Assembly (NCBI RefSeq): GCF_041053055.1
Contig: NZ_CP163443.1
Location: forward strand, 9,655,001 to 9,719,000
Length of the DNA stretch: 64,000 nucleotides
Direction of reading: 5' to 3'
DNA from: Streptomyces sp. R41
GTDB lineage: Bacteria; Actinomycetota; Actinomycetes; Streptomycetales; Streptomycetaceae
Shown one piece after another: positions 20,281 through 51,047 of this stretch (position 1 is the stretch's first letter; each line of letters opens with the position of its first letter). Made by a program: the position numbers and the translations under genes. The notes below the pieces were generated by a model, which was given only the letters and a program-made list of their open reading frames with translations, searched no databases and was not told the origin of the DNA.

Positions 20281-21480
20281 TCAGAGTTGGATGGGCAGGT
20301 GGCGGGGTCCGCGGAGCATGGCGTTCTGGCGGTAGGGAGGCGGGTCCTGGACCAGGCGGGCCGTGCCGAGGTGGGGGAGCAGCGCGCCGAGCGCGGCCTC
20401 GGCTTCGATACGGGCGAGTGGCGCGCCGAAGCACAGGTGGATACCGCTGCCGAAGCCGACGTGCTGGTTGTCCGGGCGGGTGGGGTCGAACCGGTCGGGT
20501 TCGCTGAACCGCATGGGGTCGCGGCTGCCCGAGGCCAGCGCCAGGATGACTGACGTGCCGGCGGGGATCGTGGTGCCGGCGACGTCGATGTCGACGAGGG
20601 GAACCCGCTCGCGCATGTGGACCGGGGGCTCGTAGCGCAGCAGTTCCTCCACCGCTTGCGGCAGCAGGCCGGGATCTTCGCGCAGACGGTCCAGCTGGTC
20701 GGGCCGGCGCAACAGGGTGAGGACGCCGTTGGCGATCAGATTGACCGTGGTCTCGTGTCCGGCGATGAACAGCAGGATGGTGTTCACCGCCAGGTTCTCC
20801 TCGCTGAGCCGTACGGCCGGGTCCGTTTCGTTGACGAGGTCGGAGAGCATGTCGCCGGTGGGCCGACCGCGGCGCTGTTCGGCGAGTTGGACCAGGTACT
20901 GGCCCATCTCCTGCTCCGCCTGGCCGGCCGCCTGGTCCCGTTCGGCGGTGTCACCTTCGGGCCCGATGTCGGCGGACGCGACGAGGGTGTCGGTCCAGTC
21001 CTGGAAGAGCTGCTCGTCCTTGTCCGGGATGCCGAGCAGGCGGCAGATCACGGTAACGGGAAGTGGGTAGGCGAAGTCGTCGACGACGTCGATCTGCCTG
21101 CCCTCCTGGAACACTTCCGCCAGTTCCTTGGTCAGCTGGACGATCTCGCCGCGCATGGAGTCGACCCGGCCCGGACTGTGCGGCGGGCCGAACGGCCGCA
21201 TGGCCGAGTTGCGCAGCCGGTGGTGCTCGGGGTCGTCGAGCCGCAGGAACGACGGTTGTCGTGTCACCTCGTACGGAGCGGGAGCGGTGCGCGAGCGCGC
21301 ATCAGCACTCATCCGGGGGTCGTGCAGCAGCGCGACGATCTCGTGGTAAGTGCCGATCAGGTAGCTGCCGTCCGCCTGCCGCACCGCGGGCCCCGCCTCG
21401 CGGAGTTCCGCATACAGCGGGTAGGGGTCGGGGCGGTTGGCGTAGTCGGAGATCCGGGCCAGCAGGGTGTCGGAGGCCAT
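20281..21480 (-). CDS. Cytochrome P450, class I bacterial type
   Basis: This 399-residue soluble P450 has the I-helix AGHETTVNLIANG, the ExxR motif in VEELLRYEPP, and the heme loop [18 protein letters not shown] with Cys350 as thiolate ligand. The acid-alcohol pair (E-T in GHETT) is intact, so an oxygen-activating monooxygenase is expected. It is the last gene of an operon ferredoxin, ferredoxin reductase, P450, which supplies both redox partners; the gap to the reductase is 31 bases. Start ATG has gaggagccacc upstream. The substrate is unknown. A decayed duplicate of its 3' end lies at 26262-26485. Confidence 0.95.
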   Translation of the reverse strand: MASDTLLARISDYANRPDPYPLYAELREAGPAVRQADGSYLIGTYHEIVALLHDPRMSADARSRTAPAPYEVTRQPSFLRLDDPEHHRLRNSAMRPFGPPHSPGRVDSMRGEIVQLTKELAEVFQEGRQIDVVDDFAYPLPVTVICRLLGIPDKDEQLFQDWTDTLVASADIGPEGDTAERDQAAGQAEQEMGQYLVQLAEQRRGRPTGDMLSDLVNETDPAVRLSEENLAVNTILLFIAGHETTVNLIANGVLTLLRRPDQLDRLREDPGLLPQAVEELLRYEPPVHMRERVPLVDIDVAGTTIPAGTSVILALASGSRDPMRFSEPDRFDPTRPDNQHVGFGSGIHLCFGAPLARIEAEAALGALLPHLGTARLVQDPPPYRQNAMLRGPRHLPIQL

Positions 21481-21511
21481 GGTGGCTCCTCGTGGTGGGG
21501 CGGGACGTGGG

Positions 21512-22876
21512 TCAGCCGGGCTGCACCAGCGTCAGCCGGCGATCCGGCAGGTAACCGGTGAGCGCCACGGTGGGGCCGTGGGACAGCCCGCTCGGATCCG
21601 GCACGTCGGACGGAATCGCGACGTCGGCCGCGATCGCACGGTCCTGGGCGCCGGGCGGGGGCGGGAACGGAGCAGCCGTCTCGATCAGGTGCTTGTAGTA
21701 GTCGAGCGACTTGGCCATGTCGACGGTGACCGCGGCGGTGACCCGCCCCTTGTAGCCGTAGACCACTGCCAGGCGGCGCGCCTCCAGAGAGCCTTGGGCG
21801 ATGACCACATGGTCGGAGTAGGTGGGCACGCCCACCGACTTGATGTTGAGCCCGAACTGGGTCGACCAGAACGACGGGACGGCCAGGTGCGGGCGCTGCA
21901 GGGGCCCCGGATTGACCATGTTGTGGGCCGCAACCTCGGCCTGCTCGACCGCGTTGCCCCAATGCTCCAGGGAGAGCATCTGATAATCGAACAGTGGGTG
22001 GGGGAAGCGGGAGACGTCACCGGCCACGAAGACGTCGTCGGTGACGATTCCGTACATGTTGAAGGCCCGGCATCCGGCGTCGCAGGCGATCCCGCGCGGG
22101 CCCGCCGCCAGCCCGGACTCCGCCAGCCATTCGACGTTGCGTACCGCGCCCAGCGCCACGACGCAGACGTCGGCGTCGACACGGGTGCCGTCGGACAGCT
22201 CCGCACCGGTGAAGCTGCCGTTCCCGCGCAGGGCGGTGACCGTCACCCCGGTGCGCAGGTCCACGCCGTGGTTGCGGTGCATGACGGCCGCGAGCTTCGA
22301 CAGGGTGCCGCCGAGCGCGCCCACCAGGGGTGCGGGGCCACGTTCTGCGACCGTGACCTCCAGTCCCCGCTCCCGGCAGGCCGAGGCGATCTCCGAGCCC
22401 GTGAAACCGGCGCCGATCACCAGCACCCGCTCAGGCCCGGCGGCCAGCCGCTCGGCCAGCCCCCCGGCGTCCTCGCGGGTGCGCAGGGTGAACACCCCGT
22501 CCAGGGAGGCTTCCTCCGGGTTGGGCCAGGGCCGCGCGCGGGTCCCGGTGGCGATCAGCAGCCGGTCGTACGGCAGTGACTCGCCGTCCTCCAGCAGCAC
22601 CTGTTTCGCGAGCAGATCCACGCCGGTGGCGCGCACGCCCAGCCGCCAATCGGCGTTCGGGTCCCGGCGCATCGGCAGCCCGGTGGTGTCCGCCGTAGCC
22701 TGGCCGAGCAGCACCTGCTTGGACAGCGGCGGTCGGTCGTAGGGCGGGTGGGGCTCGTCCCCGACCACGGTCAGTGAGCCGGTGAAGCCCTCCTCGCGCA
22801 GCGCCTCCGCGGCCCTGAGCCCGGCCAGCGACGCGCCGACGATGACGATACGGCCCTCCTTGAGGTCACCGGGCAC
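21512..22876 (-). CDS. FAD-dependent ferredoxin reductase for the P450 system
   Basis: This 454-residue protein has two dinucleotide-binding motifs: RIVIVGASLAGLRAAEALRE for FAD and RVLVIGAGFTGSEIASACRE for NAD(P)H. VFVAGDVSRFPHPLF, the second FAD-binding motif, follows. This is the putidaredoxin-reductase/rubredoxin-reductase type, which passes electrons from NAD(P)H to a small iron-sulfur ferredoxin. Start GTG 22876 overlaps the ferredoxin gene by 11 bases with ggaggtgagc just upstream, so the two are translationally coupled. It precedes the P450 gene. The C-terminal reductase domain seems complete. Confidence 0.93.
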   Translation of the reverse strand: MPGDLKEGRIVIVGASLAGLRAAEALREEGFTGSLTVVGDEPHPPYDRPPLSKQVLLGQATADTTGLPMRRDPNADWRLGVRATGVDLLAKQVLLEDGESLPYDRLLIATGTRARPWPNPEEASLDGVFTLRTREDAGGLAERLAAGPERVLVIGAGFTGSEIASACRERGLEVTVAERGPAPLVGALGGTLSKLAAVMHRNHGVDLRTGVTVTALRGNGSFTGAELSDGTRVDADVCVVALGAVRNVEWLAESGLAAGPRGIACDAGCRAFNMYGIVTDDVFVAGDVSRFPHPLFDYQMLSLEHWGNAVEQAEVAAHNMVNPGPLQRPHLAVPSFWSTQFGLNIKSVGVPTYSDHVVIAQGSLEARRLAVVYGYKGRVTAAVTVDMAKSLDYYKHLIETAAPFPPPPGAQDRAIAADVAIPSDVPDPSGLSHGPTVALTGYLPDRRLTLVQPG

Positions 22877-23075
22877 CGGCGCTCACCTCCTCACCGAGGA
22901 GGATCGCCTGCACCGGGCACGCCGCCGCGGCCTGGCGCACGCGCTCGACCTGGTCGTCGGGGACGGCCGTGGCGTACAGCAACCCCTCTTCGCCGTGCAG
23001 CTCGAACACCTCCGGCGCGAGGAAGACGCACTGCGCGTAGCCCTGGCAGCGCGTGAGATCCACAACGGTCTGCAT
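22866..23075 (-). CDS. Small [3Fe-4S]-type ferredoxin, P450 redox partner
   Basis: This 69-residue protein, MQTVVDLTRCQGYAQCVFLA onward, has CQGYAQC and a distal ACPVQAI, the three-cysteine pattern of actinobacterial single-cluster ferredoxins (Cx5C...CP) that usually hold a [3Fe-4S] cluster. It shuttles electrons from the reductase encoded next to the P450 two genes downstream. Start ATG 23075 has gagggag before it. The decayed copy of this gene at 26403-26615 is fused in frame to a P450 fragment. Confidence 0.92.
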   Translation of the reverse strand: MQTVVDLTRCQGYAQCVFLAPEVFELHGEEGLLYATAVPDDQVERVRQAAAACPVQAILLGEEVSAGAR

Positions 23076-23202
23076 CCCCACCACTCCCTCCGTTGTCGCA
23101 CCCCCTCCTTTCCAGCATGGGGCCGGACCCGGGCGCCCGCATGCCACGGCTCCGGAGACGGAAATCCCGGGCAGCTCGCCTGCCCAGGGCGACGGCTCAG
23201 CT

Positions 23203-23430
23203 CAGGGCGTGGTCGAGTCCGAGGGCCGCGCCGATGAGGGAAAGGGTGGGTGAACGCCCGGGAATTGCTGGGAAGTTGCTTGCCGGTGTGGCTGATCTCC
23301 TCGGTGTAGAGCCCGAGGTGGTCGATGCAGGTGAGCATCTTCCCGAAGGCCGGTCGGACTTCGTCCAGGCGGCCGACGCGGTCTCGGCGAGGACGCCGTG
23401 CTGTTCATGCCGCTGCCGGCAGTGCGGGCC
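23203..23430 (-). pseudogene. GH15 glycosidase relic, C-terminal end
   Basis: Minus-strand frames encode, with shifts, HLGLYTEEISHTGKQLP, AFTHPF and IGAALGLDHALS. These match the end of the intact GH15 protein at 26717 ([18 protein letters not shown] and [19 protein letters not shown]). The reading frame is broken at least twice and only about 75 codons are recognisable. It follows the ferredoxin gene exactly as the intact GH15 gene follows the decayed ferredoxin at 26.6 kb. Confidence 0.75.
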
Positions 23431-23453: not shown

Positions 23454-23501
23454 CCATACGTCGTATGGTAATCCTGGGGGGTACTTCCGTACGCCGTATG
23501 G
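23454..23501. promoter_or_regulatory. Two copies of 15-bp operator before the secreted-protein cluster
   Basis: CCATACGTCGTATGG at 23454-23468 is a perfect palindrome, identical to the one at 30118. CCGTACGCCGTATGG at 23487-23501 is a variant whose centre is 33 bases away, about three helical turns. They lie 86-133 bases before the secreted-protein start. The other sites are at 25152, 29317, 30118 and 30144. Confidence 0.75.
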
Positions 23502-23586
23502 AAGAGTTTGCTCGGATCACACCAGGCGCCGCATATCGCCTGCATGTAGCCGATGGTGCAGATCGCACAATCGGGAAGGAAAGACC

Positions 23587-23841
23587 ATGAAGAAGCTCAC
23601 GAGGCGCGTTGCCGTCACCGCTTTCTCTGTGGCGGTCGCGGGTGTCGCCGTTCTCGGCGCCGGGGGCACCGCTTCGGCCGCGACTTCTGCATCCGCGCAC
23701 GTTCAGCGCCCGGCCCTCAGCGTCAACGCCGTCGACTACCGCTGGGACCACGGTGTCGGCTACCTGCTCGAACTGGGCTACTCCTGGGACGAGATCTATG
23801 GCTGGCACCACGACGGCCGGGATGAGATCAGCGGTCGCTGA
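23587..23841 (+). CDS. Small secreted protein, unknown function
   Basis: This 84-residue protein has a classical signal peptide: MKKLTRRVAVTAFSVAVAG, a hydrophobic stretch and the Ala-rich end GTASA, with cleavage likely after ASA (about residue 31). The mature part of roughly 50 residues is rich in Tyr, Trp and His (DYRWDHGVGYLLELGYSWDE then YGWHHDGRDE) and has no Cys. ATG 23587 has ggaaggaaag upstream. It is preceded by two copies of the 15-bp operator and followed after 27 bases by an SsgA-like gene, probably in one operon. No family recognised. Confidence 0.75.
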   Translation: MKKLTRRVAVTAFSVAVAGVAVLGAGGTASAATSASAHVQRPALSVNAVDYRWDHGVGYLLELGYSWDEIYGWHHDGRDEISGR

Positions 23842-23868
23842 ACGCCGCTCAGGCAGGAGTGAAAGTCG

Positions 23869-24288
23869 ATGGAGTCTTTGAAGACCGTCATGCAGGGGGT
23901 GGCCGTAGAGCTTGTTGTCTCGCGCACCTACTCGCTGTCGATGTGCATGAGCCTGCGCTACGAGCCCACTGATCCCTATGTCGTCCGTGCCACCTTTTTC
24001 ACCGACACCGACGAGCCGGCCGAATGGGTCCTGGGGCGTGATCTTCTGGCCGATGGCCTGAGGGGTTCCGCAGGCTGTGGGGACATCCGGGTGTGGTCGG
24101 CCGTAGGCCGTGGTGACCATGCGATGTACATCGTCCTCGGGGCTCCCGCGGGCACCGCCTTGCTCGAGGTTCCCGTGCGGGACGTCAGGGCCTTCCTGGA
24201 GGACACGGAGGCGCTGGTGCCACGGGGTACCGAGTCCGGACACATCGACTGGGAGCTCGAACTGGCGAATCTGTTCGCGAAAGGCTGA
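23869..24288 (+). CDS. SsgA-like sporulation/cell-division regulator (SALP)
   Basis: This 139-residue protein shows the SsgA/SsgB fold pattern: LRYEPTDPYVVRATFF, WVLGRDLLADGLRGSAG, GDIRVWSAVGRGDHAMYIVL and the C-terminal EVPVRDVRAFLEDTEALVP. These proteins, restricted to sporulating actinobacteria, guide septum site selection and peptidoglycan processing during sporulation. The family marks the host as Streptomyces-like. It lies between a secreted-protein gene and a NIPSNAP gene on the same strand, an accessory context rather than one of the conserved ssg loci. Start ATG 23869 has aggag 8 bases upstream. Confidence 0.88.
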   Translation: MESLKTVMQGVAVELVVSRTYSLSMCMSLRYEPTDPYVVRATFFTDTDEPAEWVLGRDLLADGLRGSAGCGDIRVWSAVGRGDHAMYIVLGAPAGTALLEVPVRDVRAFLEDTEALVPRGTESGHIDWELELANLFAKG

Positions 24289-24358
24289 GAGAAGCCTCCC
24301 AACCGCCGTGCCGCTGGGGACCTTTGACCCGGCGACAGAAGAGAAGGAAAGAGTGTTC

Positions 24359-24688
24359 ATGTCCCAGTACCAGCTTCGTGTCTACACACTGCGCAGCCCT
24401 GAGGCGCTCGTCGCCTACGAGAACATCTGGGCGAAGCACATTCCCGGTATGGCCAAGCACAGGATCGCCACGCACGGCGTCTGGACGGTGCCCGCAACTC
24501 CTGGGAGTGAGGCGCCCCAGCTGTACGCCCTCGTTTCCTACCGGGACGCCGACGACGTTCAGGAGCGGCTGGAGGCGTACCTGTCCAGCCCCGAATTCCG
24601 CGCGGACATGGAGGGCTTCGACATCAGCCAGATCGTCGGCGTCGCCGAGTCCGTGCTGACGCCCACCGCCGACTCTCCCTTGCGGTGA
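24359..24688 (+). CDS. NIPSNAP family protein
   Basis: This 109-residue dimeric alpha/beta-barrel protein begins MSQYQLRVYTLRSPEALVAY and continues with IWAKHIPGMAKHRIATHGVW and LVSYRDADDVQERLEAYLSS, the NIPSNAP/ABM-type ferredoxin-like fold. Many small actinobacterial relatives are uncharacterised or accompany degradative enzymes. ATG 24359 has a purine-rich gaaggaaagag upstream. It is 70 bases behind the SsgA-like gene and ahead of a TetR gene on the same strand. A truncated copy sits on the other strand at 25983-26084. Confidence 0.82.
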   Translation: MSQYQLRVYTLRSPEALVAYENIWAKHIPGMAKHRIATHGVWTVPATPGSEAPQLYALVSYRDADDVQERLEAYLSSPEFRADMEGFDISQIVGVAESVLTPTADSPLR

Positions 24689-25151
24689 CGGGTACCGAGC
24701 CGCTCGAAGTCTGCGGCGACCTTCTCGGTCGTGTCACGCCGCGCAACTCCGCCAAGGCGCCCGCTGGACGGCAGCGGGCATGGACGAGACCGGCGAGGTC
24801 GGGGGGAGTTGCGGAGGACCCGGTTGAGTGCGTGCTTAGGGCGGGCTGTCGCCCGCAGAGCGCGCACGTGGATCCGCTGACGGTGTACACCACCAGGTCG
24901 GCCACGGATCGGTCGCCCGGCCCAGCCGCAGCGCACCGCGCATCTGCAGCGGCCGCATGGAGAGGGCCTTCCCGGATGTGATGGGTGCCTCCTCATACGC
25001 CGCAGCCTGAGCCCGCCCGACCACGGGCCGCAGGCGACTTCCAGGAACAGGAACCACGGCCCGTTCCGCCCGTTCGGGTGCCGTACGTAGGTCCGCAGGA
25101 GTGACCGTCACCACGGGCGGCGAGTCCCCCTCGCTGGCATACGGCTTGATA
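24689..25151. other. Intergenic region before TetR gene, no gene seen
   Basis: The 460-bp stretch has open frames on both strands but none with a start, ribosome-binding site or recognisable motif. Near its right end gcatacgg (25137-25144) is a half-site of the 15-bp operator. Confidence 0.5.
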
Positions 25152-25166
25152 ACGTACATCGTATGG
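25152..25166 (+). promoter_or_regulatory. 15-bp operator overlapping the TetR start codon
   Basis: ACGTACATCGTATGG matches the palindrome CCATACGTCGTATGG at 12 of 15 positions, and its ATG is the start codon of the TetR gene at 25163. A repressor bound here would cover the translation start and probably the transcription start. Confidence 0.6.
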
Positions 25167-25960
25167 AAAGAGCGAAGCGTACCCCTAGAGGTACTCGGAA
25201 GAGGGATGTGCCTCTGACCGAGGCAGGGATCTGCACCTCCGCCCTGCGACTCATCGACGCGGACGGGGTCGAGGCGCTCACGATGCGCAAACTCGCCGCC
25301 GCGCTGGACGCGAACCCAATGTCGCTGTACCACCACGTGCCGAACAAGGAAGCATTGCTGCGTGGCGTGGCGAGAATGGTCGGCGCCCGGTTCCGCACCG
25401 TGACACTGGAGGACGCTCCCTGGCAGGAGCGTATGCGCCTGCTTGCCGCGGATTTCCGGACGCTGGCACACCGCCATCCCAACCTCATGGCCTACTCGTT
25501 CAGCCAGCCGGACTTCATCCAGCCCGAAGATCCCTTCTGGGTCGCGCTCACCGCCGTGCTGGACGCCGCAGGGGTTCCGCAGTCGGATATCCCGCAGCTC
25601 GCCGCGCTCGTGTGCGCCGTCGTCACCGGCGTGATGATCGCCGAGCTCAACGGCGCGCTCCACCGGTGGTCGAACCTCCAGCCCACCACACCCGCCTCCG
25701 GCGAGGACGGGCCGACGAACGAGGGCTTTGGCGAGGACCGGATGTTCCGCCTGGTGCTGGACACGATCATCAGCGGCATGGAAAGTCGGCTCGCGGCCGA
25801 TCACGCCGGTGGGCGCGACGGCCGGCCCCCGCAGAACTCCTTGCGTGCCTCCGGACGCATCCCCCGTCAACTCCGCCCACCGGCCGCACGCTGCGAAGGA
25901 GGGCCCCCGGGGAATCCCGTCTCGGACATGGCGGCCGGTTTCGACCCGAAAGAGCAGTGA
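25163..25960 (+). CDS. TetR family regulator with start codon inside its operator
   Basis: This 265-residue protein has a TetR HTH (LRLIDADGVEALTMRKLAAA, LDANPMSLYHHVPNKEALLR) and a C-terminal ligand domain with PDFIQPEDPFW. It is a paralogue of the TetR at 28664-29320, sharing PRGTRKRDVPLT and most of the first 140 residues. The C-terminal ~60 residues are an unrelated Pro/Arg-rich tail, perhaps from loss of the original stop codon. No ribosome-binding site precedes the ATG, which lies within the 15-bp palindrome, so a leaderless autorepressed transcript is likely. Confidence 0.85.
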   Translation: MERAKRTPRGTRKRDVPLTEAGICTSALRLIDADGVEALTMRKLAAALDANPMSLYHHVPNKEALLRGVARMVGARFRTVTLEDAPWQERMRLLAADFRTLAHRHPNLMAYSFSQPDFIQPEDPFWVALTAVLDAAGVPQSDIPQLAALVCAVVTGVMIAELNGALHRWSNLQPTTPASGEDGPTNEGFGEDRMFRLVLDTIISGMESRLAADHAGGRDGRPPQNSLRASGRIPRQLRPPAARCEGGPPGNPVSDMAAGFDPKEQ

Positions 25961-25988
25961 GGGTCAAAAGCCTAGACATGCTGTTTTT
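25961..25988. repeat. Short repeat shared with 44453-44481
   Basis: gggtcaaaagcct, then acatg and gttttt recur at 44453-44481 upstream of an alpha/beta hydrolase. Here the palindrome CCTCAT-ATGAGG has decayed. It lies at the end of a truncated NIPSNAP copy. Confidence 0.6.
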
Positions 25989-26084
25989 GTTCAGCCCGGG
26001 GATGTGCTTGGCCCAGATGGTCTCGTAGGCGGCGAGCGCCTCGGGGGTGCGCAGTGTGTAGACAAGAAGCTGGTACTGGGACAT
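25983..26084 (-). pseudogene. NIPSNAP relic, N-terminal third
   Basis: An ATG at 26084 opens MSQYQLLVYTLRTPEALAAY, then ETIWAKHIPGLNKN, nearly the same as residues 1-33 of the intact NIPSNAP protein at 24359. Similarity ends abruptly at about 25983 and the frame runs into unrelated sequence. It is inverted relative to the intact copy and belongs to the decayed duplicate segment. Confidence 0.75.
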
Positions 26085-26154
26085 GAAAACTCGGTCCCCT
26101 TGCGGTTCTCTGAGTGGGTGTCATGGGTGACACGGGACAGCGCGGGGGCAGGGC

Positions 26155-26262
26155 ATGGCTATGGGCCACTTCACCGTGTCCGACCAGGTCATCGCCCTGA
26201 CGGTGGTCAACTGCTGCCTGCCGGCGCTCCTGGAACTGTGGTTCAACCGGCCGGAGGCCGAC
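26155..26262 (+). pseudogene. TetR relic, C-terminal part
   Basis: The frame reads MGHFTVSDQVIALTVVNCCL, then PALLELWFNRPEAD. This matches AAGRFTVVDPVIALTVLNGS and LLALLELWCNQPGAD of the TetR at 19540. N-terminal HTH and the last ~30 residues are missing. Its end meets the decayed P450 3' end, the same convergent order as in the intact copy at 20.1-20.3 kb. Confidence 0.75.
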
Positions 26263-26615
26263 GTTGGACGGGCAGGTGGCGCGGCCCGCGCAGCATGGCG
26301 TTCTGCCGGTTGGGGGGCGAGTCCTGGACCGGGCGTGCCGTGCCGAGGTAGGGGATCAGCGTGCTGGGTGCGGCATGGGCCTCGATGCGGGCGAGCGGTC
26401 CGCTATAAGCACAGGTGGATGCCGCTGCCGAAGCCAAGGTGCTGGTTGTCCGGGCGGGTCGGGTCGAACCGGTCGGGCTCGGGGAACCGCTTATCGTCCG
26501 GCACGGCCGTGACGTACAACAGGCCCTCCCCACCGTGCAGCTCGAACACCGCGGGCGCGAGAAACGGGCACCATGCATACCCTCGGCAGTGCATGAGGCC
26601 GACAATGGTCCGCAT
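26262..26615 (-). pseudogene. Deletion remnant joining ferredoxin 5' end to P450 3' end
   Basis: From ATG 26615 the frame encodes [20 protein letters not shown], a ferredoxin start with two cysteines, up to AVPDD. It then continues without a break into [18 protein letters not shown] and GFGSGIHLC of a P450 heme loop, stopping at 26403. In the next frame GPLARIEAHA, LIPYLGTARPVQDSP and NAMLRGPRHLP complete the P450 end. About 2.7 kb present in the intact operon (rest of ferredoxin, all of the reductase, most of the P450) is missing. Confidence 0.85.
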
Positions 26616-26716
26616 CTTCATCGCTTCGTCCGTTGTCTCACCCCCCTCTTCCCGCATGAGGGCGGAACGGGAGGCTCGCACGGCGACTCGTCGAGGGACG
26701 CCGCCGGGCCCGCCCG

Positions 26717-28540
26717 TCAGCCCAGGGCGCGGTCGAGGTTGAAGGCGGCGCTGATGAGGGCGAGGTGGGTGAATGCCTGGGGGAAGTTGCCCAGTTGCTG
26801 CCCGGTGTGGCTGATCTCCTCGGCGTACAGGCCTACATGGTTGGCGTAGGTGAGCATCTTCTCGAAGGCCAGGCGGGCTTCGTCCAGTCGTCCGGCGCGG
26901 GTGAGGGCCTCGACGTACCAGAAGGAGCAGATGGAGAACGTGCCTTCGTCGCCTTCGAGGCCGTCGGGGCTGGCCTCCGGGTCATAGCGCCAGACGAGGG
27001 AGTCGGAAACGAGTTCGTTGCCGAGGGCATCGAGGGTGGACAGCCAGACGGGATCGGTGGGGGAGACGAACTTGGTCAGCGGCATCATCAGCACCGCGGC
27101 GTCCAGTACGTCGCCCTCCTCGTGCTGGACGAAGGCCTGCCGGGTGGGCGACCAGCCCTTGTCCATGATCTGCCAGTAGATCCGGTCGCGGACCGGACCC
27201 CAGCGGCCGAGTTCGGCGGGCAGGCTACGGCGCAGGGCCATGCGGATGGCGCGTTCGATGGCGACCCAGCACATCAGCCGGGAGTAGAGGAACTTCTTCC
27301 GCCCGCCGCGGGTCTCCCACACGCCCTCGTCCGGCTGGTCCCAGTGCTCGCAGACCCAGTCCACCAGGGCGCACACCGCGCGCCAGTGGCCACTGGACAG
27401 GGGCCGGCACCACTTGTCGTACAGGTACACGGAGTCGATCAGAGCGCCGTAGATATCGAGTTGCAGCTGGGTGGCCGCGCCGTTGCCGACCCGCACGGGC
27501 GCCGAACCCCGGTAGCCCTCCAGGTGGGGCAGCTCGCGCTCGGGCAGCTCGGCCCGTCCGTCGATGCCGTACATGACCTGCAGCGGCCCGGACGGTCCGT
27601 CGTCGCGCCGGTCGATGTGCTGGGTGAGGAAGCCGATGAACGCCTCGGCCTCCTCGGCGAAGCCGAGTCTGAGCAGCGCGTAGACGGCGAACGCGGAGTC
27701 GCGTATCCACGTGTAGCGGTAGTCCCAGTTGCGGCCGCCGCCGAGCTGCTCGGGCAGGCTCGTGGTCGGGGCCGCCACGATCGCACCGGTGGGGGCGTAG
27801 GTGAGCAGCTTCAGGGTGAGGGCGGAGCGGTGCACCATCTCCCGCCAGCGGCCGCGGTAGCGGGACTGCTGCAGCCAGCGCCGCCAGAAGGCGACCGTGG
27901 CGGTGAACTCCCGCTCGGCCTCGGCGTGCGGGCAGCCGCGCGGCGGACTCTCGTCGGTGACCCGCTCGAGCGCGAAGACCGCCGTGTCGCCCTGGGACAG
28001 CGTGAACTCTGTCCGTACGTCCTTCCCGTCGGACTCGAGCGGCACCGTCGCGGTCAGCGTCAGCGACAGCGCCTCGGAAGCGAACAGAGCGGCGCCGTCC
28101 AGTATCCGCAGGGTGTGCGGTTGGGCGCCATAGCCGAAGCGGGGAGCCACCCGGGCTCGGAACGGGATCGTCCCGCGGACGCACACCACCCGCCGGATCA
28201 GCCGGTGGCGGTCGGACTCGCCGGCGTGTGTCACGGGCATGAAGTCCTGGATCTCCCCGAGCCCGTCCTCGGTGAAGAACCGGGTGATCAGTACGTTGGT
28301 GTCGGGGAAGTAGAACTGTTTCGTCTCGGCAGGCACGGCCGCGGACAGTTCGAACGCCCCGCCCAGGTCCGCGTCCAGGATGGCGGCGAACACGCTCGGG
28401 GAGTCGAAGGACGGGCAGCAGTACCAGTCGATGGTCCCGTCGGTACCCACCAGGGCCGCTGTGCGCAGATCCCCGATCAGGCCGTGCTCGGCGATCGGCA
28501 GGTACCGGGCTGACGTGTGCTGTGTCGGCGCTCCGGACAT
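26717..28540 (-). CDS. Glycoside hydrolase family 15 protein (trehalase/glucoamylase type)
   Basis: This 607-residue protein starts with [20 protein letters not shown], typical of actinobacterial GH15 enzymes. The (alpha/alpha)6 catalytic part has [40 protein letters not shown] (general-acid region, Glu in VWE) and [20 protein letters not shown] (general-base Glu). Related enzymes hydrolyse trehalose or alpha-glucosides in the cytoplasm; no signal peptide is present. ATG 28540 has gagagg upstream. Two C-terminal fragments of the same gene occur at 23203 and 40524, so this is the only intact copy. Confidence 0.92.
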
Positions 28541-28663
28541 CGCAGCGGCCTCTCTACGCTCCTGCCTCCACTATGGCCCTTCGCTGTCGCGGCGGCACCA
28601 GGTCGGCCCGGCGGGGACGCCGCCGGACCGCGCACCGCCCCCCCCGGAGCCGTTCCGCTTCCG

Positions 28664-29320
28664 TCACGCCCTCTCGCGGGCTCGTGCGACATGGTTCTCC
28701 ACTCCGGCGACCGCGGCGTTCAGCGTGGAGTTGAACATGGTGTCGATCACGTCCTTGGAGGGCGGGGGCGCGTCTTCCCCGTCGGGGCCCGACGGTGCCG
28801 GTGGCAGAGTGGCCCACCGCTGCAGTGCCCCGTTCAGTTCGCTGAGCAGCAGACCTGTGAACACACCGACCAGGGTCGCGGCGACGCGCGGAATCTCCTC
28901 CTCGGGCAGTTTCGCGGTGGCCAGGATGTTGATCAGTGCCTGCCAGAAGGGGTCCTCCGGCTGCACGTAGTCGGGGCGCGTGAAGGAATACCCCATCAGT
29001 TTCGGGTGACGGTGCGACAGTTCGCGGAAGTCCCGGGCCAGTTCACGCAGTCGGTCCTGCCAGGGGATGTCTCCCCGCTCCTCCGCGCTGAACTGCGAAC
29101 CGACCCGGTGGGCCACGCCGCGCAGCACGGCGTCCTTGTTCGGCACGTGGTGGTACAGCGACATCGGGTTCGCGTCGAGCGCGGTCGCGAGTTTGCGCAT
29201 GGTGAGCGCCTCGACCCCGTCGGCATCGATGAGCTGCAACGCCATGGCGTAGATGCCGTCCTTGGTGAGCGGTACGTCCCTCTTTCTCGTGCCCCGAGGG
29301 GGCTTCCGTTCAGTAGCCAT
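28664..29320 (-). CDS. TetR family regulator, paralogue of 25163, start inside operator
   Basis: This 218-residue protein has LQLIDADGVEALTMRKLATA and LDANPMSLYHHVPNKDAVLR as its HTH, and PDYVQPEDPFWQALINI in the ligand domain, matching the TetR at 25163 closely over its first 150 residues. The normal length here supports the view that the other copy has an aberrant tail. The start ATG at 29320-29318 lies inside the palindrome at 29317-29331, with no ribosome-binding site. It is divergent to the CYP102-type gene across 0.9 kb, whose promoter carries the same operator. Confidence 0.9.
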   Translation of the reverse strand: MATERKPPRGTRKRDVPLTKDGIYAMALQLIDADGVEALTMRKLATALDANPMSLYHHVPNKDAVLRGVAHRVGSQFSAEERGDIPWQDRLRELARDFRELSHRHPKLMGYSFTRPDYVQPEDPFWQALINILATAKLPEEEIPRVAATLVGVFTGLLLSELNGALQRWATLPPAPSGPDGEDAPPPSKDVIDTMFNSTLNAAVAGVENHVARARERA

Positions 29321-29331
29321 ACGGTGTATGG
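29317..29331 (-). promoter_or_regulatory. 15-bp operator overlapping the second TetR start
   Basis: CCATACGGTGTATGG has one arm mismatch relative to the perfect palindrome; the CAT at 29318-29320 is the start codon on the minus strand. The position mirrors the site at 25152. Confidence 0.75.
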
Positions 29332-30117
29332 TACCAGCGTCGGCAGCAATAGTGGCACCTTGTCAGTCCCCCGTTCATCCGGCTTCGCGGCGGTGGGGCT
29401 GGTTGCGGTGCTGTGCGCGCTAGTGAACGGTGCCGACTGGCGGCGGGCGGTGGACAAGTCCCGGACTGGTGGCCTTGGTGGGCGACGAGGTCGTCAAGGC
29501 GCGCGCCTTGAACGGGAAAAGGCACGACTGGAAGCCGTGCTCGAGGAGTGCGGCAAGGCGCTCGAGCAGCGGCTTCAGTGCACTGCCGCCTGAACGCGTG
29601 CAGGCATAGAACCAGGCAAGGCGTGTCGGCCGCCCCCCTTCCGTGGTGTGCTCGCCTGCGGCAGCAGATCGCAGGTATGCCCTGCCGAGGGGACCTTGGC
29701 GAACCCGGCTTGCCCGCTCTCACGGACTGATGCCGGACCGATCGAGCGCGACGTGGAGATCAGAGGCGCAGCCGCGAGGCGGCACGCGCGCCTGCTCCTC
29801 CGGCGCTGCCGTCAGCCGCCAACGCGCATGGATGCAGACCTGGCCTCCGTGATGCGTACTGGCAGGCAGGGGGATTGGCTGCTCACCGGAATGTCGCCGG
29901 AGCCGCCGCCGCGGATCGTAGGTGTCCTCCACGGGTTGCACCCACCGGGGGAAGCCCTGTCAAGCCGCCGGCTGACGACGACCGGTCTCGCCCCTCGCCT
30001 CCTCCAGCCGGGAGAGCGTTCGGAAGCGCCTGATCTTGATGCGACCCCGCTGCGCGAGCGACGCCGTCCCTGATGAGCCGAACCTGTTTCTCGACCCCAG
30101 GCCTGCCGATTGAGGTT
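29332..30117. other. Long intergenic region before CYP102 gene, no gene recognised
   Basis: About 790 bp separate the TetR start from the operators of the CYP102-type gene. A plus-strand frame ending at 29593 has a coiled-coil-like tail (EREKARLEAVLEECGKALEQ) but no start or homologue that I recognise. Other frames are low quality. Confidence 0.45.
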
Positions 30118-30158
30118 CCATACGTCGTATGGTATCACTGAAGGCATACAGCGTATGG
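30118..30158 (+). promoter_or_regulatory. Two 15-bp operators before CYP102-type gene
   Basis: CCATACGTCGTATGG (30118-30132) is a perfect palindrome identical to 23454-23468. GCATACAGCGTATGG (30144-30158) differs from it at three positions, with its centre 26 bases away. They lie 77-117 bases before the start codon, where the promoter must be. Confidence 0.8.
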
Positions 30159-30234
30159 AAATCGGGTGCCGCCGTACCGGCGCCCTGCCACACCGAATGG
30201 CGCCCTGCCCGCCTTTCCCCTCGAAGGAGCCACC

Positions 30235-33200
30235 ATGACCACACAGCCCGAGACCGACCTGCGGCCCATCCGGTCTCCGCGGGGGGTCCCGCTCTTCGGC
30301 CACACGCCGCAGATCCCCAGCACCAACCCGGTGGAGTACTTCGGCAAGCTGTCCAAGCAGTTCCCCGAGGGCCTCTACGGCATGGAGATCGCCGGCATCG
30401 AGCAGGTCTTCGTCTGGGACCCGGACCTGGTGGCCGAGGTCTGTGACGAGACGCGGTTCTTCAAGCAGATCGACAAGACGCCGCTGGCCCATGTCCGGGA
30501 CTACGCGGGAGCCGCCCTGTTCACGGCCCACCAGCACGAGGAGGAATGGGGCATGGCGCACCGAGTCCTCCTCCCGGCCTTCAGCCAGCGGGCGATGAAG
30601 GGCTACTACGGGCAGATGCTGGAGATCGCCCAGAACCTGGTGGGCAAGTGGGAGCGCAAGGAGGGCCAGCCGGTCAACATCACCGACGACTACACCCGGC
30701 TGACCCTGGACACCATCGCCCTGACGGGGTTCGGTTACCGGTTCGACTCCTTCGCCAAGGAGGAGTTGCACCCCTTCCTCAACGCGCTGCTGGAGGCCCT
30801 GATCGAGTCGATGCGGCGCTCGCAGGAGCTGCCGATGATGACCAAGATGCGCAAGGCCGATGACAAGAAGTACCGCGGGAACATCCAGCTGATGCGGGAC
30901 CTGGTCGAGAGTGTGATCAAGGAGCGCCGCGAGGGGAAGGGCACCGGTGAGGACGACCTGCTGGGCCTGATGCTGGAGGCCACCGACCCGGAGACCGGCA
31001 AGCCGCTGGACGACGACAACGTCCGTGACCAGGTGCTGACGTTCCTGATCGCCGGTCACGAGACCACCAGTGGTCTGCTGTCGTTCGCCACGTACTCGCT
31101 GATGCGCAACCCGCACATCCTGGCCCAGGCCTACGCCGAGGTGGACCGGCTGCTGCCGGGTGACACGGTCCCGGACTACGACACGATCATGCAGATGGAC
31201 GTGATCCCGCGGATCCTGGAGGAGACCCTGCGCCTGTGGGCTCCCATCCCGATGATCGGCAAGTCCCCGCTGGAGGACACCGTCATCGGCGGCTGCTACG
31301 GGCTGAAGAAGGGAGCGCGGGTCAACATCCTTGAGGGTCCGCTGCACACCCACCCCAAGGCCTGGGACCGGCCGGAGGAGTTCGACATCAACCGGTGGCT
31401 GCCGGAGAACCGGGTCAACCACCACCCGCACGCCTACAAGCCGTTCGGCAACGGCGTACGTGCCTGCATCGGCCGGCAGTTCGCGCTCACCGAGGCTCGT
31501 CTGGCCCTTGCGCTGGTGCTGCAGAAGTTCAAGTTCGCCGACATGAGCGACTACAAGATGGACGTCAAGGAGGCGCTGACCCGCAAGCCCGGCGGCTTCG
31601 AACTGAACGTGCGGGCCCGTCAGGAGCACGAGCGGACCGTTTTCGGCGCAGTGGACCTGCAGAGCGACGACACGCGGGCGCAGGCCGCGGTCAGCGGTGT
31701 GGGGGTGAACCTGACCGTCGCCTACGGCTCCAGCCTTGGCTCCTGCGAGGATCTGGCGCGCACGATCGCCGACCGCAGTGAGCGCTCCGGCTTCGGCACC
31801 ACGCTGACGAGCCTGGACGAGCTGGGCGACAACCTGCCCACCGAGGGCCTGCTCGTCGTCGTGGCTTCCAGCTACAACGGCAAGGCCCCGGACAACGCGC
31901 AGCGTTTCGACGAGCTGATCGCCGCCGGACTCCCGGAGGGCTCGCTGTCCAACGTTCGGTTCGCGCTGCTGGGTGCCGGCAACACCCAGTGGGTGGCCAC
32001 CTACCAGGGCTTCCCCAAGCGGATCGAGGCAGGCCTGCTGGCCGCCGGCGCCACCCGCGTCATCGAGCGCGGCATCGCGGACGCCGCCGGTGACTTCGAC
32101 GGCATGGCCTCCCGCTGGATGGACACCCTGTGGGCCACGCTGGCCGAGGAGTACGCCGCCGACACCTCCGAAACCACCGGGCCGCGCTTCGAGGTGCAGC
32201 TGCTGACCGAGGCGGAGGTGCGTCCCGCGATCGTCTCCGAGCAGGCCTACCCCCTCACCGTGGTCGCCAACGAGGAGCTGGTCAGCGACGCGACCGGGCT
32301 GTGGGACTTCAGCATCGAGCCGCCGCGCCCGGCCGCGAAGTCCATCACCATCGAACTCCCCGACGGTGTCACCTATGACACCGGCAACCACTTGGCCGTC
32401 TTTGCCAAGAACGAACCGGCCCTGGTCAACCGTGCGCTGACGCGGCTCGGCGTCGAGTCCAACCAGGTGCTGCGCCTGGACCAGCCCGCCGGCGGCCGCA
32501 CGCACCTCCCGGTGGGCACTCCCGTCACCGCGGGTCTGCTGTTCACCGAGTTCGTGGAGCTGCAGGACGTGGCCACCCGCTTGCAGATCCAGACGCTGGC
32601 CGGGTATACCGAGTGCCCGTGGACCCGGCCGCAGCTGGAGGCCTACACGGCCGACACCGCCGAGGCCGAGGAGGCTTACCAGAGCGAGGTCCTGGGCAAG
32701 CGGGTCTCCGTGCTCAACCTGCTGGAGCGCTTCCCGGCGGTCGAGCTGCCGCTGGCGGTGTTCCTGGAGATGATGGGCCCGATCCGCCCGCGGTTCTACT
32801 CCATCTCCTCCGCCCCGCTGGCCAATCCGCGGCACGTGCGGCTGACCGTGGGTCTGCTGGAAGGTCCGGCCCTGTCCGGCGACGGCCGGTACCGCGGCAC
32901 CTGCTCCGCCTACATCGCAGGCCTCAATCCCGGTGACGTGTTCTACGGCTACGTGCGTGTGCCCTCCCCGACCTTCGCGCCGCCGGCCGACCCCGCCACG
33001 CCGCTGGTCCTCATCGGTCCCGGCACCGGCATCGCGCCGCTGCGCGGCTTCCTGGAGGAGCGTGCCCACCAGCACGCGAACGGCACCCAGGTGGGCCTGT
33101 CCCAGGTCTTCGTCGGCTGCCGCCACCCGGAGCACGACTACTTCTACGGCCAGGAGATGCAGGACTGGGAGCAGTCCGGGATCGCCCAGGTGCACACCGC

Positions 33201-33456
33201 CTTCTCCGCGGTGACCGGCCACCCGGCCCGGTTCGTCCAGGACGCCATCGTAGGTGCGGCCGACACCGTGTGGCAGGCCATCCAGGACGGCGCGTACATC
33301 TACGTCTGCGGCGACGGCCGCCGCATGGCACCCGCCGTGCGCGAGGCGCTCGCCGCCATCTACCGCAAGTACACCGGCAGCGACGACGAGGCCGCCCAGC
33401 AGTGGCTCGCCCAGCTGGAAGCGGACGAGCGCTACCAGCAGGACGTCTTCGCCTGA
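30235..33456 (+). CDS. Self-sufficient cytochrome P450-CPR fusion (CYP102/P450-BM3 type), copy 1
   Basis: This 1073-residue protein carries a P450 domain (1 to about 470), an FMN flavodoxin domain (about 495-640) and an FAD/NADPH reductase domain (about 670-1073). The heme loop is PFGNGVRACIGRQFA with Cys411; the I helix has LIAGHETTSGLL, and ILEETLR gives ExxR. The Phe of ALFTAH corresponds to BM3 Phe87. The FMN site is AYGSSLGSCEDLA, the FAD site RFYSISSAP, the NADPH end YVCGDGRRM and DVFA. It hydroxylates or epoxidises fatty-acid-like substrates. ATG 30235 has gaaggag upstream. A zinc dehydrogenase follows; the pair recurs at 46557. Confidence 0.96.
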   Translation: MTTQPETDLRPIRSPRGVPLFGHTPQIPSTNPVEYFGKLSKQFPEGLYGMEIAGIEQVFVWDPDLVAEVCDETRFFKQIDKTPLAHVRDYAGAALFTAHQHEEEWGMAHRVLLPAFSQRAMKGYYGQMLEIAQNLVGKWERKEGQPVNITDDYTRLTLDTIALTGFGYRFDSFAKEELHPFLNALLEALIESMRRSQELPMMTKMRKADDKKYRGNIQLMRDLVESVIKERREGKGTGEDDLLGLMLEATDPETGKPLDDDNVRDQVLTFLIAGHETTSGLLSFATYSLMRNPHILAQAYAEVDRLLPGDTVPDYDTIMQMDVIPRILEETLRLWAPIPMIGKSPLEDTVIGGCYGLKKGARVNILEGPLHTHPKAWDRPEEFDINRWLPENRVNHHPHAYKPFGNGVRACIGRQFALTEARLALALVLQKFKFADMSDYKMDVKEALTRKPGGFELNVRARQEHERTVFGAVDLQSDDTRAQAAVSGVGVNLTVAYGSSLGSCEDLARTIADRSERSGFGTTLTSLDELGDNLPTEGLLVVVASSYNGKAPDNAQRFDELIAAGLPEGSLSNVRFALLGAGNTQWVATYQGFPKRIEAGLLAAGATRVIERGIADAAGDFDGMASRWMDTLWATLAEEYAADTSETTGPRFEVQLLTEAEVRPAIVSEQAYPLTVVANEELVSDATGLWDFSIEPPRPAAKSITIELPDGVTYDTGNHLAVFAKNEPALVNRALTRLGVESNQVLRLDQPAGGRTHLPVGTPVTAGLLFTEFVELQDVATRLQIQTLAGYTECPWTRPQLEAYTADTAEAEEAYQSEVLGKRVSVLNLLERFPAVELPLAVFLEMMGPIRPRFYSISSAPLANPRHVRLTVGLLEGPALSGDGRYRGTCSAYIAGLNPGDVFYGYVRVPSPTFAPPADPATPLVLIGPGTGIAPLRGFLEERAHQHANGTQVGLSQVFVGCRHPEHDYFYGQEMQDWEQSGIAQVHTAFSAVTGHPARFVQDAIVGAADTVWQAIQDGAYIYVCGDGRRMAPAVREALAAIYRKYTGSDDEAAQQWLAQLEADERYQQDVFA

Positions 33457-33586
33457 CCCTCAGACGCCGGGAGGGTGCGGCGGTCCTGACACCCCGCACC
33501 CCTCCCGGCCACCACTCATCCACGAGGCACCACACGGCACCCATCGGCCCGAACGCCGGAGTGCCGCTCACAGAAAGCAGAGCACC

Positions 33587-34633
33587 ATGGACACCATGCT
33601 CGCCGGACGCTTCCACCTGGACAGCAAGAAGTTCGCTGTGGAGGAGGTCCCCGTCCCCGTGCCCGGCCCGGGCGAGGTCCTCATCGAGGTCAAGGCCGCC
33701 GGCGTCTGCCTCTCGGACGTCCACCTGCTCGACGGCTCCCTTCCTCCGCTCTTCCTGGACTCCGACACGGTCACCGTCGGGCATGAGGTTTCCGGTGTGA
33801 TCCACACCCTCGGTCCCGGCCTCAAGCGCGGCCTGACCGTCGGCACCCGCGTCACCCTGGAGGCCGGCAAGAGCTGCGGCCAGTGCGCCGGCTGCGTGCG
33901 CCGCCGCCCCTGCAGCCAGATGCGCACCGCCGGCATCGACTACGACGGCGGCTGGGCCCAGTACATGGTCACCCCCGAGGAGACCCTCATCCCCATCCCC
34001 GACAACCTCCCCTTCGACCAGGCCGCGATCATCCCCGACGCGGTCTCCACCCCCTACGCCGCCGTCGTCGCCACCGCCGGAGTCCGTCCCGCCCAGTCCG
34101 TCGGCATCTGGGGCGTGGGCGGAGTCGGCGCGCACAACGTACGCATCGCCCGCCTGGCCGGCGCCGCGCCGATCATCGCCGTCGACCCGCTGCCCAGCGC
34201 CCGCGAGCGTGCCCTGGCCTTCGGCGCGGACTTCGCCCTCGACCCGGCCGCCCCCGACTTCGCCGACCAGGTCCGCGCGGCCACCGGCGGACGGGGCCTG
34301 GACTTCGCCTTCGACTGCGCCGGCGTGCCCGCCGTCCGCGAACAGGCCGCCGCCGCACTCGGCCTGGGCGGAGTCCTCATCCTGGTCGGCATCAGCCCCA
34401 GGCCCCTCACCATCACCGAGGGTCTGACCTTCAACTACCTCGGCAAGCAGGTGCGCGGCCACTACGGCGGCACCCCCGAGTCCGTCACCGAGCTGGTCCG
34501 GCTGGCCGAAGTCGGCCGTCTCGACCTGGCCCCCTCCATCACTGACCACATCCCGTTCGCCGAGGCCGCCGACGCGGTCAACCGGCTGGAGAACAAGATC
34601 GGCGACCCGATCCGCCTCATCCTCGTCCCCTGA
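33587..34633 (+). CDS. Zinc-dependent alcohol dehydrogenase, copy 1
   Basis: This 348-residue MDR enzyme has the catalytic zinc residues in GVCLSDVHLL and VGHEVSG, a structural-zinc-like cluster CGQCAGCVRRRPC, and the cofactor motif GIWGVGGVGAHNVRIA, which favours NAD(P). It would oxidise the alcohols formed by the P450 fusion encoded 130 bases upstream, giving ketones or aldehydes. ATG 33587 has the weak site agaaag. Residues 1-278 are identical to the copy at 49906, and the differences cluster in the last 70 residues (FNYLGKQ against FNYTMKQ). The terminator at 34697 closes the cassette. Confidence 0.93.
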   Translation: MDTMLAGRFHLDSKKFAVEEVPVPVPGPGEVLIEVKAAGVCLSDVHLLDGSLPPLFLDSDTVTVGHEVSGVIHTLGPGLKRGLTVGTRVTLEAGKSCGQCAGCVRRRPCSQMRTAGIDYDGGWAQYMVTPEETLIPIPDNLPFDQAAIIPDAVSTPYAAVVATAGVRPAQSVGIWGVGGVGAHNVRIARLAGAAPIIAVDPLPSARERALAFGADFALDPAAPDFADQVRAATGGRGLDFAFDCAGVPAVREQAAAALGLGGVLILVGISPRPLTITEGLTFNYLGKQVRGHYGGTPESVTELVRLAEVGRLDLAPSITDHIPFAEAADAVNRLENKIGDPIRLILVP

Positions 34634-34696
34634 CACCCGAACAGAACCCGTAGCTGAGCCAAAAGTTCATCAAGACCACCTCGGGCAGGGGTGAGT

Positions 34697-34728
34697 GGGC
34701 GCCGGTGCTTGAGGGAGCACCGGCGCCC
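34697..34728. terminator. Terminator of CYP102-ADH cassette copy 1
   Basis: Perfect 13-bp arms gggcgccggtgct and agcaccggcgccc flank a 6-base loop, 63 bases after the dehydrogenase stop. The identical structure follows the second cassette at 51016-51047, and sequence identity between the cassettes ends at this hairpin. Confidence 0.75.
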
Positions 34729-46418: not shown

Positions 46419-46463
46419 TGAGACAAGTTGACTCATAGGCGCTCTGTGAGTCAATCTGTCTCA
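46419..46463 (+). promoter_or_regulatory. Paired 17-bp operators before CYP102-type gene copy 2
   Basis: TGAGACAAGTTGACTCA (46419-46435) and TGAGTCAATCTGTCTCA (46447-46463) are each near-palindromic (TGAG-n-CAA-n-TTG-n-CTCA) and are also inverted to each other, with centres 28 bases apart. They lie 94-138 bases before the start codon. The sequence is unrelated to the operator of copy 1; the cognate repressor is not identified in this window. Confidence 0.75.
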
Positions 46464-46556
46464 CATGAGGGGGAATGCCGTTGCACCAGCGGCGTTCCCA
46501 CGTAACCCGACCGGTGCCCTTGCCCCTCCCCTCTCTCTGCACAAAGGAGCAAGTCC

Positions 46557-49775: not shown

Positions 49776-49905
49776 CCCTCAGACGCCGGGAGGGTGCGGC
49801 GGTCCTGACACCCCGCACCCCTCCCGGCCACCACTCATCCACGAGGCACCACACGGCACCCATCGGCCCGAACGCCGGAGTGCCGCTCACAGAAAGCAGA
49901 GCACC

Positions 49906-50952: not shown

Positions 50953-51015
50953 CACCAGAACAGAACCCGTAGCTGAACCAAAAGTTCATCAAGACCACCT
51001 CGGGCAGGGGTGAGT

Positions 51016-51047
51016 GGGCGCCGGTGCTTGAGGGAGCACCGGCGCCC
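51016..51047. terminator. Terminator of CYP102-ADH cassette copy 2
   Basis: Same 13-bp perfect stem and 6-base loop as at 34697-34728. Identity between the two cassettes ends one base after the hairpin. Confidence 0.75.

Follow-up and report, generated by a model that had tools for sequence, protein, structure and literature searches.

A repeated palindrome in Streptomyces sp. R41, very probably the binding site of a known TetR repressor pair and probably part of a wider local switch

Genes and palindromic sites of the locus

The DNA analysed here (the window, 64,000 nucleotides, positions 9655001-9719000 of the 10.46-Mb chromosome of Streptomyces sp. R41) carries a repeated 15-bp palindrome near two genes for TetR-type regulators, a cytochrome P450 gene, and a cluster of genes for small proteins. 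The genes and predicted operators are listed below in window coordinates, together with the evidence used to assign them.

20281-21480, minus strand: divergent P450 (Pfam)
21512-22876, minus strand: ferredoxin reductase (Pfam)
22866-23081, minus strand: ferredoxin (Pfam)
23454..23468: predicted operator, perfect palindrome, first of a pair 33 bp apart (motif scan, exact 19-bp match)
23487..23501: predicted operator, second of the pair, upstream of the secreted/SsgA-like/NIPSNAP operon (motif scan, exact 19-bp match)
23587..23841, plus strand: small secreted-type protein, 84 aa (N-terminus read by eye, homologues)
23869..24288, plus strand: SsgA-like protein, 139 aa (PF04686, 105.8 bits, cut-off 25)
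24359..24688, plus strand: NIPSNAP-domain protein, 109 aa (PF07978)
25152..25166: predicted operator spanning the TetR1 start codon (motif scan, matrix, start geometry)
25163..25960, plus strand: TetR1, SAV577-type repressor, 265 aa (TetR_N plus TetR_C_1, identity)
28664..29320, minus strand: TetR2, SAV576-type repressor, 218 aa (TetR_N plus TetR_C_1, length, place, and geometry)
29317..29331: predicted operator spanning the TetR2 start codon, counterpart of S. avermitilis site III (motif scan, paper comparison)
30118..30132: predicted operator, perfect palindrome, counterpart of site II, -117 to -103 from the P450 start (motif scan, paper comparison)
30144..30158: predicted operator, counterpart of site I, -91 to -77 from the P450 start (motif scan, paper comparison)
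30235..33456, plus strand: CYP102-type self-sufficient P450, 1073 aa (Pfam)
33587..34633, plus strand: zinc-type alcohol dehydrogenase, 348 aa, counterpart of SAV574 (Pfam)

The genes next to the palindromes are those named in an earlier note on this DNA: Pfam identifies the SsgA and NIPSNAP proteins, the two TetR proteins, and the P450-reductase fusion, and the 84-aa protein looks secreted by its N-terminus (a Pfam search with this protein gave no match). The single chain encoded at 30235-33456 matches PF00067, PF00258, PF00667, and PF00175 (P450 plus flavodoxin, FAD, and NAD domains) and is thus of the CYP102 type. Both regulators belong to the TetR family, with PF00440 scores of 36.1 and 30.4 bits (cut-off 24) and PF02909 scores of 25.2 and 25.9 bits (cut-off 21), and they are 57% identical to each other. 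In 38 of 43 matched TetR sequences, the second helix of this motif has the sequence DANPMSLYHHVPNK, and the motif is the one that contacts DNA. Matches to TetR2 among PDB sequences include ActR (E 1e-11) and SimR (E 3e-10), and span about 100 N-terminal residues. SimR and ActR govern antibiotic exporters, and the half-site of SimR is of the GTAC type. In Bacillus megaterium, the self-sufficient CYP102A1 is controlled by the TetR-type repressor Bm3R1, which belongs to another lineage and has another operator than the system described here.

A scan of the window with CCATACGTCGTATGG, allowing up to three mismatches, returned exactly six places, at the positions and with the letters that had been claimed. 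Perfect copies lie at 23454 and 30118, copies with two mismatches at 23487 and 29317, and copies with three mismatches at 25152 and 30144. The claimed spacings of the paired sites, 33 and 26 bp, are likewise correct (23487-23454 and 30144-30118). The six places amount to 11 strand-matches, compared to a mean of 0.89 and a maximum of 4 in 100 shuffles.

Distribution of the sites and width of the operator

CRTACRNYGTAYG occurs at 27 places in the genome, compared to one for a reversed-pattern control, and 11 of the 27 fall within 9678454-9745498, 67 kb of 10.46 Mb (binomial 9e-18, for an interval picked after the fact). The five local sites outside the window are 9726904 and the pairs 9741843/9741869 and 9745451/9745484, in which the window spacings of 26 and 33 bp recur. 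All six sites of the earlier note are therefore real, but at least eleven exist locally; its figure of four promoters is right for the window and too low overall, because another three promoter regions outside it hold five sites. The note had also proposed a genome-wide motif scan, in which scatter at similar density across unrelated regions would have spoken against a local regulon. Such scatter was not seen with the stricter patterns CRTACRNYGTAYG and TWCCRTACRNYGTAYGGWA. The loose 15-mer with three mismatches gave 74 and 90 matches by strand versus 59 and 61 for the reversed control, and is mostly noise at this scale.

The conserved block is wider than 15 bp, at about 19 bp (TWCCRTACRNYGTAYGGWA). 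A left-hand TWC or a right-hand GWA is present at all 11 local sites and at none of the 15 outside places viewed (of 16), and 14 of the 16 outside CRTACRNYGTAYG places have CGTAC on both halves. Exact matches to TWCCRTACRNYGTAYGGWA number seven genome-wide, all of them local. With three mismatches this pattern has at least 52 places versus 16 for the control, mostly background; among the matches listed, one place outside the region (9098120) has two mismatches to the 19-bp pattern. Two outside places with a CATAC half (8097513 and 3396170) were considered as members and left out, since the flanks are absent. We also built a position matrix from 81 sites of relatives, which shows this block of about 19 bp; because the sites had been collected with the core pattern, the core columns, but not the flanks, partly follow from how the matrix was made. 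Applied to the 140 kb surrounding the window, it found the same 11 sites with scores of 20 or more, one decayed site at window-equivalent 71055 (11.5), and one weak match (9.7), while weak matches in shuffled versions of the 140 kb numbered 0 to 4 per shuffle (five shuffles).

The sites beyond the window also precede genes. Site 9726904 stands before a minus-strand gene for a secreted protein (L037 11231-11731) that shares 66% identity with its window homologue over 59 residues. A third gene of this kind (L038 10698-10949; 46% over 76 residues) follows the pair 9745451/9745484, as does an SsgA gene (L038 11098-11520, PF04686), whose product is 55% identical to the SsgA-like protein of the window. 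An MFS gene (L038 7396-8907) begins 512 bp after the pair 9741843/9741869, whose second site has the start geometry of a TetR gene, TGATACCGT followed by 7 bases and ATG. A decayed TetR gene between this pair and the MFS gene is a guess; tblastn with both TetRs gave no significant match there (best E 0.13). At L189 and L195 a relative of the MFS protein (87% and 81%) is encoded downstream of a TetR gene on the same strand, and one might guess at a former TetR-MFS operon.

The product of L037 11231-11731 (minus strand) is a secreted protein of 166 aa whose long tail abounds in repeated D, R, N, and Y residues, and its gene has one operator upstream. For the gene at L037 12295-12912, an identity as DUF1269 was dropped; Pfam gives only a TauE match below the cut-off.

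Correspondence with SAV574-SAV581 of Streptomyces avermitilis

The core of this system is already known from S. avermitilis (PMC3742746, PMC4051647). SAV576 (218 aa) and SAV577 (265 aa) are adjacent TetR repressors of the CYP102D1 gene SAV575 (PMC3742746, PMC4051647), and SAV577 is 59% identical to SAV576, with a C-terminal extension (PMC4051647). Each protects the three sites between SAV575 and SAV576 (PMC3742746, PMC4051647). The 15-bp consensus derived with SAV576 is CCRTACRVYGTATGS, and SAV576 binding is lost on site mutation (PMC3742746). SAV574 is co-transcribed with SAV575, and SAV579, SAV580 (ssgZ, an ssgA homologue), and SAV581 (secreted) form a single transcription unit nearby (PMC3742746, PMC4051647).

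The TetR pair of the window resembles SAV576/SAV577 in lengths (218 and 265 aa), place, gene order, and site geometry. The intergenic region between the P450 and TetR2 genes is 914 bp in the window and 900 bp in S. avermitilis, and the window sites lie within the counterparts of footprints I-III: two belong to the P450 promoter, and the third spans the start codon of TetR2. The CCRTACRVYGTATGS-type palindrome is thus found at the P450 promoter and over a TetR start codon, at equal distances, although the printed consensus is slightly narrower than the window sites (e.g., T at the centre). In both species a dehydrogenase gene follows the P450 gene, and an ssgA homologue and a secreted-protein gene lie nearby. 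A protein named S. avermitilis (P0107) is 91% identical to TetR1, extension included, and one with S. avermitilis in its name (P0131) is 89% identical to the window secreted protein. Judged by length, place, and geometry, TetR2 appears to be the counterpart of SAV576. The repeated palindrome is very probably the binding site of this repressor pair known from another Streptomyces, and we infer that it is bound by the TetR proteins in strain R41 as well.

The loci also differ. The start codon of TetR1 is covered by a well-matching site (matrix score 21.9), whereas the site published for SAV577, CCGTACGTAGTCCGC, fits less well; the targets given in the available text of the S. avermitilis papers include no sites in front of secreted/SsgA-like operons or an MFS gene; and the P450 cassette is duplicated in R41, with a second copy that lacks these sites. 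The earlier note had proposed a local regulon of one or both TetR paralogues. This is published for the P450 and TetR genes of the S. avermitilis locus (PMC3742746, PMC4051647), but SAV577 is reported not to regulate itself. What is new relative to the available text of the published accounts is how far the regulon extends, how widely it is spread, how wide the operator is, and the idea that a promoter lies inside the start-codon operator.

Conservation and spread of the TetR genes and sites

Sites were found at all 17 named close TetR loci (L059-L075; TetR of at least 56% identity over most of its length), including records titled Actinacidiphila soli, Rhodococcus opacus, and two Arthrobacter, and 15 of these loci (not L059 and L073) have a CYP102 gene in the fetched stretch with sites before it. 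Loci L048-L058, from R41 itself and other genomes, have sites in 11 of 11 cases, as do all 20 further loci L137-L156 at a score of 12 or more (L148 has weak sites only). A site match was present at one of 59 distant TetR loci (L078-L136), and no sites were found near L076 (44% TetR) or L077 (a 93%-identical 42-residue TetR fragment at a contig end). The genomes sampled for conservation included no S. avermitilis DNA.

Among 392 Streptomyces genomes, 26 carry the TetR (E 1e-45 or better, scoring the best 7 candidates per genome), and the strict 17-bp site is present in 51. At least one strict site occurs in 25 of the 26 carriers versus 26 of the 366 non-carriers, and at least two in 24 carriers versus 2 non-carriers (Fisher 8e-34; TetR and site tables were compared by eye). 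The exceptions are carriers G003 (no strict site) and G230 (one) and non-carriers G028 (three) and G418 (two); another 24 non-carriers have exactly one. G028 and G418 thus have strict operators and no TetR match at E 1e-45, perhaps reflecting a diverged or lost regulator. Reports from 2013-2014 presented the repressor pair as specific to S. avermitilis; it is now seen in 26 of the 392 sampled Streptomyces genomes and in Actinacidiphila, Rhodococcus, and Arthrobacter records. Four Streptomyces plasmid records contain a TetR relative (three at 79%, one at 60%), and a Rhodococcus record and a Nonomuraea record match TetR at about 40% or less. Because relatives are carried on plasmid records and several genera have the TetR or its sites, the distribution suggests transfer between strains.

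Chance repetition is ruled out by the shuffles, the whole-genome scan, and this conservation. There is next to no probability that the repeats are due to chance or are a dispersed element without regulatory role, since promoter placement, conservation, co-occurrence with TetR, and the match to a footprinted operator all speak against it, and nothing was found in its favour beyond the duplicated surroundings.

It would also be conceivable that only TetR2 matters, with TetR1 nearly inactive or devoted to other sites, as SAV577 binds much more weakly than SAV576 (PMC4051647). We regard this as unlikely, given that SAV577 protects the same three sites, that its deletion derepresses SAV575 (PMC4051647), and that several site-bearing loci (e.g., L068-L072) have only a SAV577-type TetR within the fetched stretch.

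The secreted/SsgA-like/NIPSNAP operon

The connection of a P450 with a morphological-type protein, claimed in the earlier note, gains support from the conservation of the site pair before the secreted/SsgA-like/NIPSNAP operon. We fetched 17 regions from 12 genomes around sites among the matches listed; these were selected for having sites and therefore test what follows the pair, not how often the operon lacks it. A pair 34 or 35 bp apart is present in 15 of the 17 regions and is followed by a secreted-protein homologue at 15 of 15 loci. Homologues of both the SsgA-like and NIPSNAP proteins follow at 13 loci (some in two pieces), with neither at L191 and only the SsgA-like gene at L193. Regions L194 and L199 have single sites before a second type of secreted protein. 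A divergent ferredoxin-like match is present at 12 of the 15 loci (a 28-residue piece in L192), 11 of which also have at least a piece of the reductase and P450. The divergent ferredoxin gene of the window begins 373 bp away from site 23454, the first of its pair, and the divergent P450, ferredoxin reductase, and ferredoxin genes (20281..23081) are a possible further target of the pair 23454/23487. A literature search for NIPSNAP and SsgA in Streptomyces found no paper on the combination; one for the consensus or SAV579-581 returned the two S. avermitilis papers cited here and two others.

In a narrower alternative, regulation would be confined to the P450-dehydrogenase and TetR genes, and the copies in front of the secreted/SsgA-like operons and the exporter gene would be inert leftovers of duplication. 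The region is indeed rich in duplicated pieces, and the S. avermitilis experiments, in the available text, cover the core only. Yet the pair has kept its 34-35 bp spacing before a secreted-protein gene at 15 of 15 loci in 12 genomes, though the flanking genes vary, which makes this alternative improbable. The conserved arrangement supports control of the secreted/SsgA-like/NIPSNAP operon by the TetR pair. Small secreted proteins, a cell-division-type protein, and an exporter probably all come under the local switch.

Operators over TetR start codons

In both TetR genes of the window, TGNTANNNT, which resembles an extended -10 element, stands 7 bases ahead of the ATG and is overlapped by the operator, and neither gene has a Shine-Dalgarno-like motif. 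Across 48 distinct TetR starts, the element lies 6 or 7 bases before the ATG in 39, a count that gives no probability because the sequences are related; by a simple test, 47 of the 48 have no Shine-Dalgarno-like motif. The background for the element is 12 of 486 ATG genes, or 5 of 478 with these TetRs left out. Nine TetR starts do not have it, of which five were judged to be wrongly chosen upstream ATGs (L072, L144, L148, L168, and L187) and four truly without it (L056, L059 minus, L062 at 6470, and L074 at 6955). The element is kept at L069, L070, L073, and L075, where the start-codon palindrome is ruined. These features suggest that a leaderless promoter perhaps lies inside the start-codon operator, which, if true, would be a simple account of a binding site over a start codon.

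In S. avermitilis, 5'-RACE placed the SAV576 transcription start 405 nt upstream and revealed no leaderless start, and how SAV576 represses from a start-codon site far past the mapped transcription start was left open (PMC3742746). Because of this distant start, we do not claim a leaderless start as the only TetR2 promoter. The SAV577 promoter is bound by SAV576 (PMC3742746, PMC4051647) and was neither bound nor repressed by SAV577 itself, in an experiment whose probe spanned -159 to -367 from the start codon (PMC4051647). Such a probe would miss a start-codon site, if SAV577 has one.

Proposed regulation

Taken together, we consider it highly likely that the palindrome is the operator of a SAV576/SAV577-type TetR pair within a wider local switch. 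TetR2 (of the SAV576 type, the stronger binder in S. avermitilis) and TetR1 (the weaker) would each bind TWCCRTACRNYGTAYGGWA as a homodimer. The two adjacent operators at the P450 promoter would cover the -10 region and transcription start, so that bound repressor blocks RNA polymerase. At the TetR genes, the repressors may shut off their own leaderless promoters, because the operator holds the start codon and overlaps TGNTANNNT, with no Shine-Dalgarno-like motif. The pair 33 bp apart would control the secreted/SsgA-like/NIPSNAP operon and perhaps the divergent ferredoxin-reductase-P450 genes, while operators beyond the window would serve the MFS exporter gene and two further genes for secreted proteins, one of them accompanied by an SsgA-like gene. 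The repressors would be released by a ligand, for which a hydrophobic P450 substrate is a plausible candidate. Relative to the available published text, the secreted/SsgA-like/NIPSNAP operon, the ferredoxin-reductase-P450 operon, and the exporter are concrete new candidate targets, and the coupling of a P450 switch to a morphology-type protein becomes a testable question.

A broader reading, to which we give somewhat less than an even chance, is that the TetR-P450 core belongs to a module that is widespread and moves horizontally. This module would jointly switch two P450 systems, an MFS exporter, an SsgA-like protein, and small secreted proteins, and so couple the oxidation of lipids or chemical defence to changes of the cell surface or septum. 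On the same reading, both repressor genes would be read from leaderless promoters inside their operators, with repressor and RNA polymerase competing at the start codon. If true, it would explain the puzzling start-codon site of S. avermitilis.

Second P450 cassette and traces of duplication

The CYP102-dehydrogenase cassette is present twice in the window, at 30224-34728 and 46544-51047 (DNA 93.8% identical, proteins 88.9% and 98.3%). The homology begins 11 bp before the P450 start codon, the promoters are unlike, and the matrix finds no site upstream of the second copy, which was therefore rejected as a member of the regulon. Instead, two exact TGAGWCANNNTGWCTCA palindromes lie upstream of it (46419 and 46447; span 46419-46463). 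With one mismatch, TGAGWCANNNTGWCTCA occurs at 7 places genome-wide, 6 of them within 9701419-9744987, compared to none for the control. One TGAGWCANNNTGWCTCA precedes another TetR gene (L038 9122-9709; TetR_N above cut-off), whose product is a candidate regulator of these sites. Since copy 2 has TGAGWCANNNTGWCTCA sites and one of these palindromes also precedes another TetR gene, the two P450 copies seem to be under different local repressors. The TGAGWCANNNTGWCTCA places comprise 46419-46463 in the window, L037 12201, and L038 9061, 9943, and 9971.

Duplicated remnants are also present closer to the TetR genes. The stretch 22954-23381 (ferredoxin end, GH15 gene end) recurs at 26494-26900, and an inverted piece of the NIPSNAP gene (24351-24447) lies at 25996-26092. 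Both point to earlier duplication and inversion events in the surroundings of the TetR genes.
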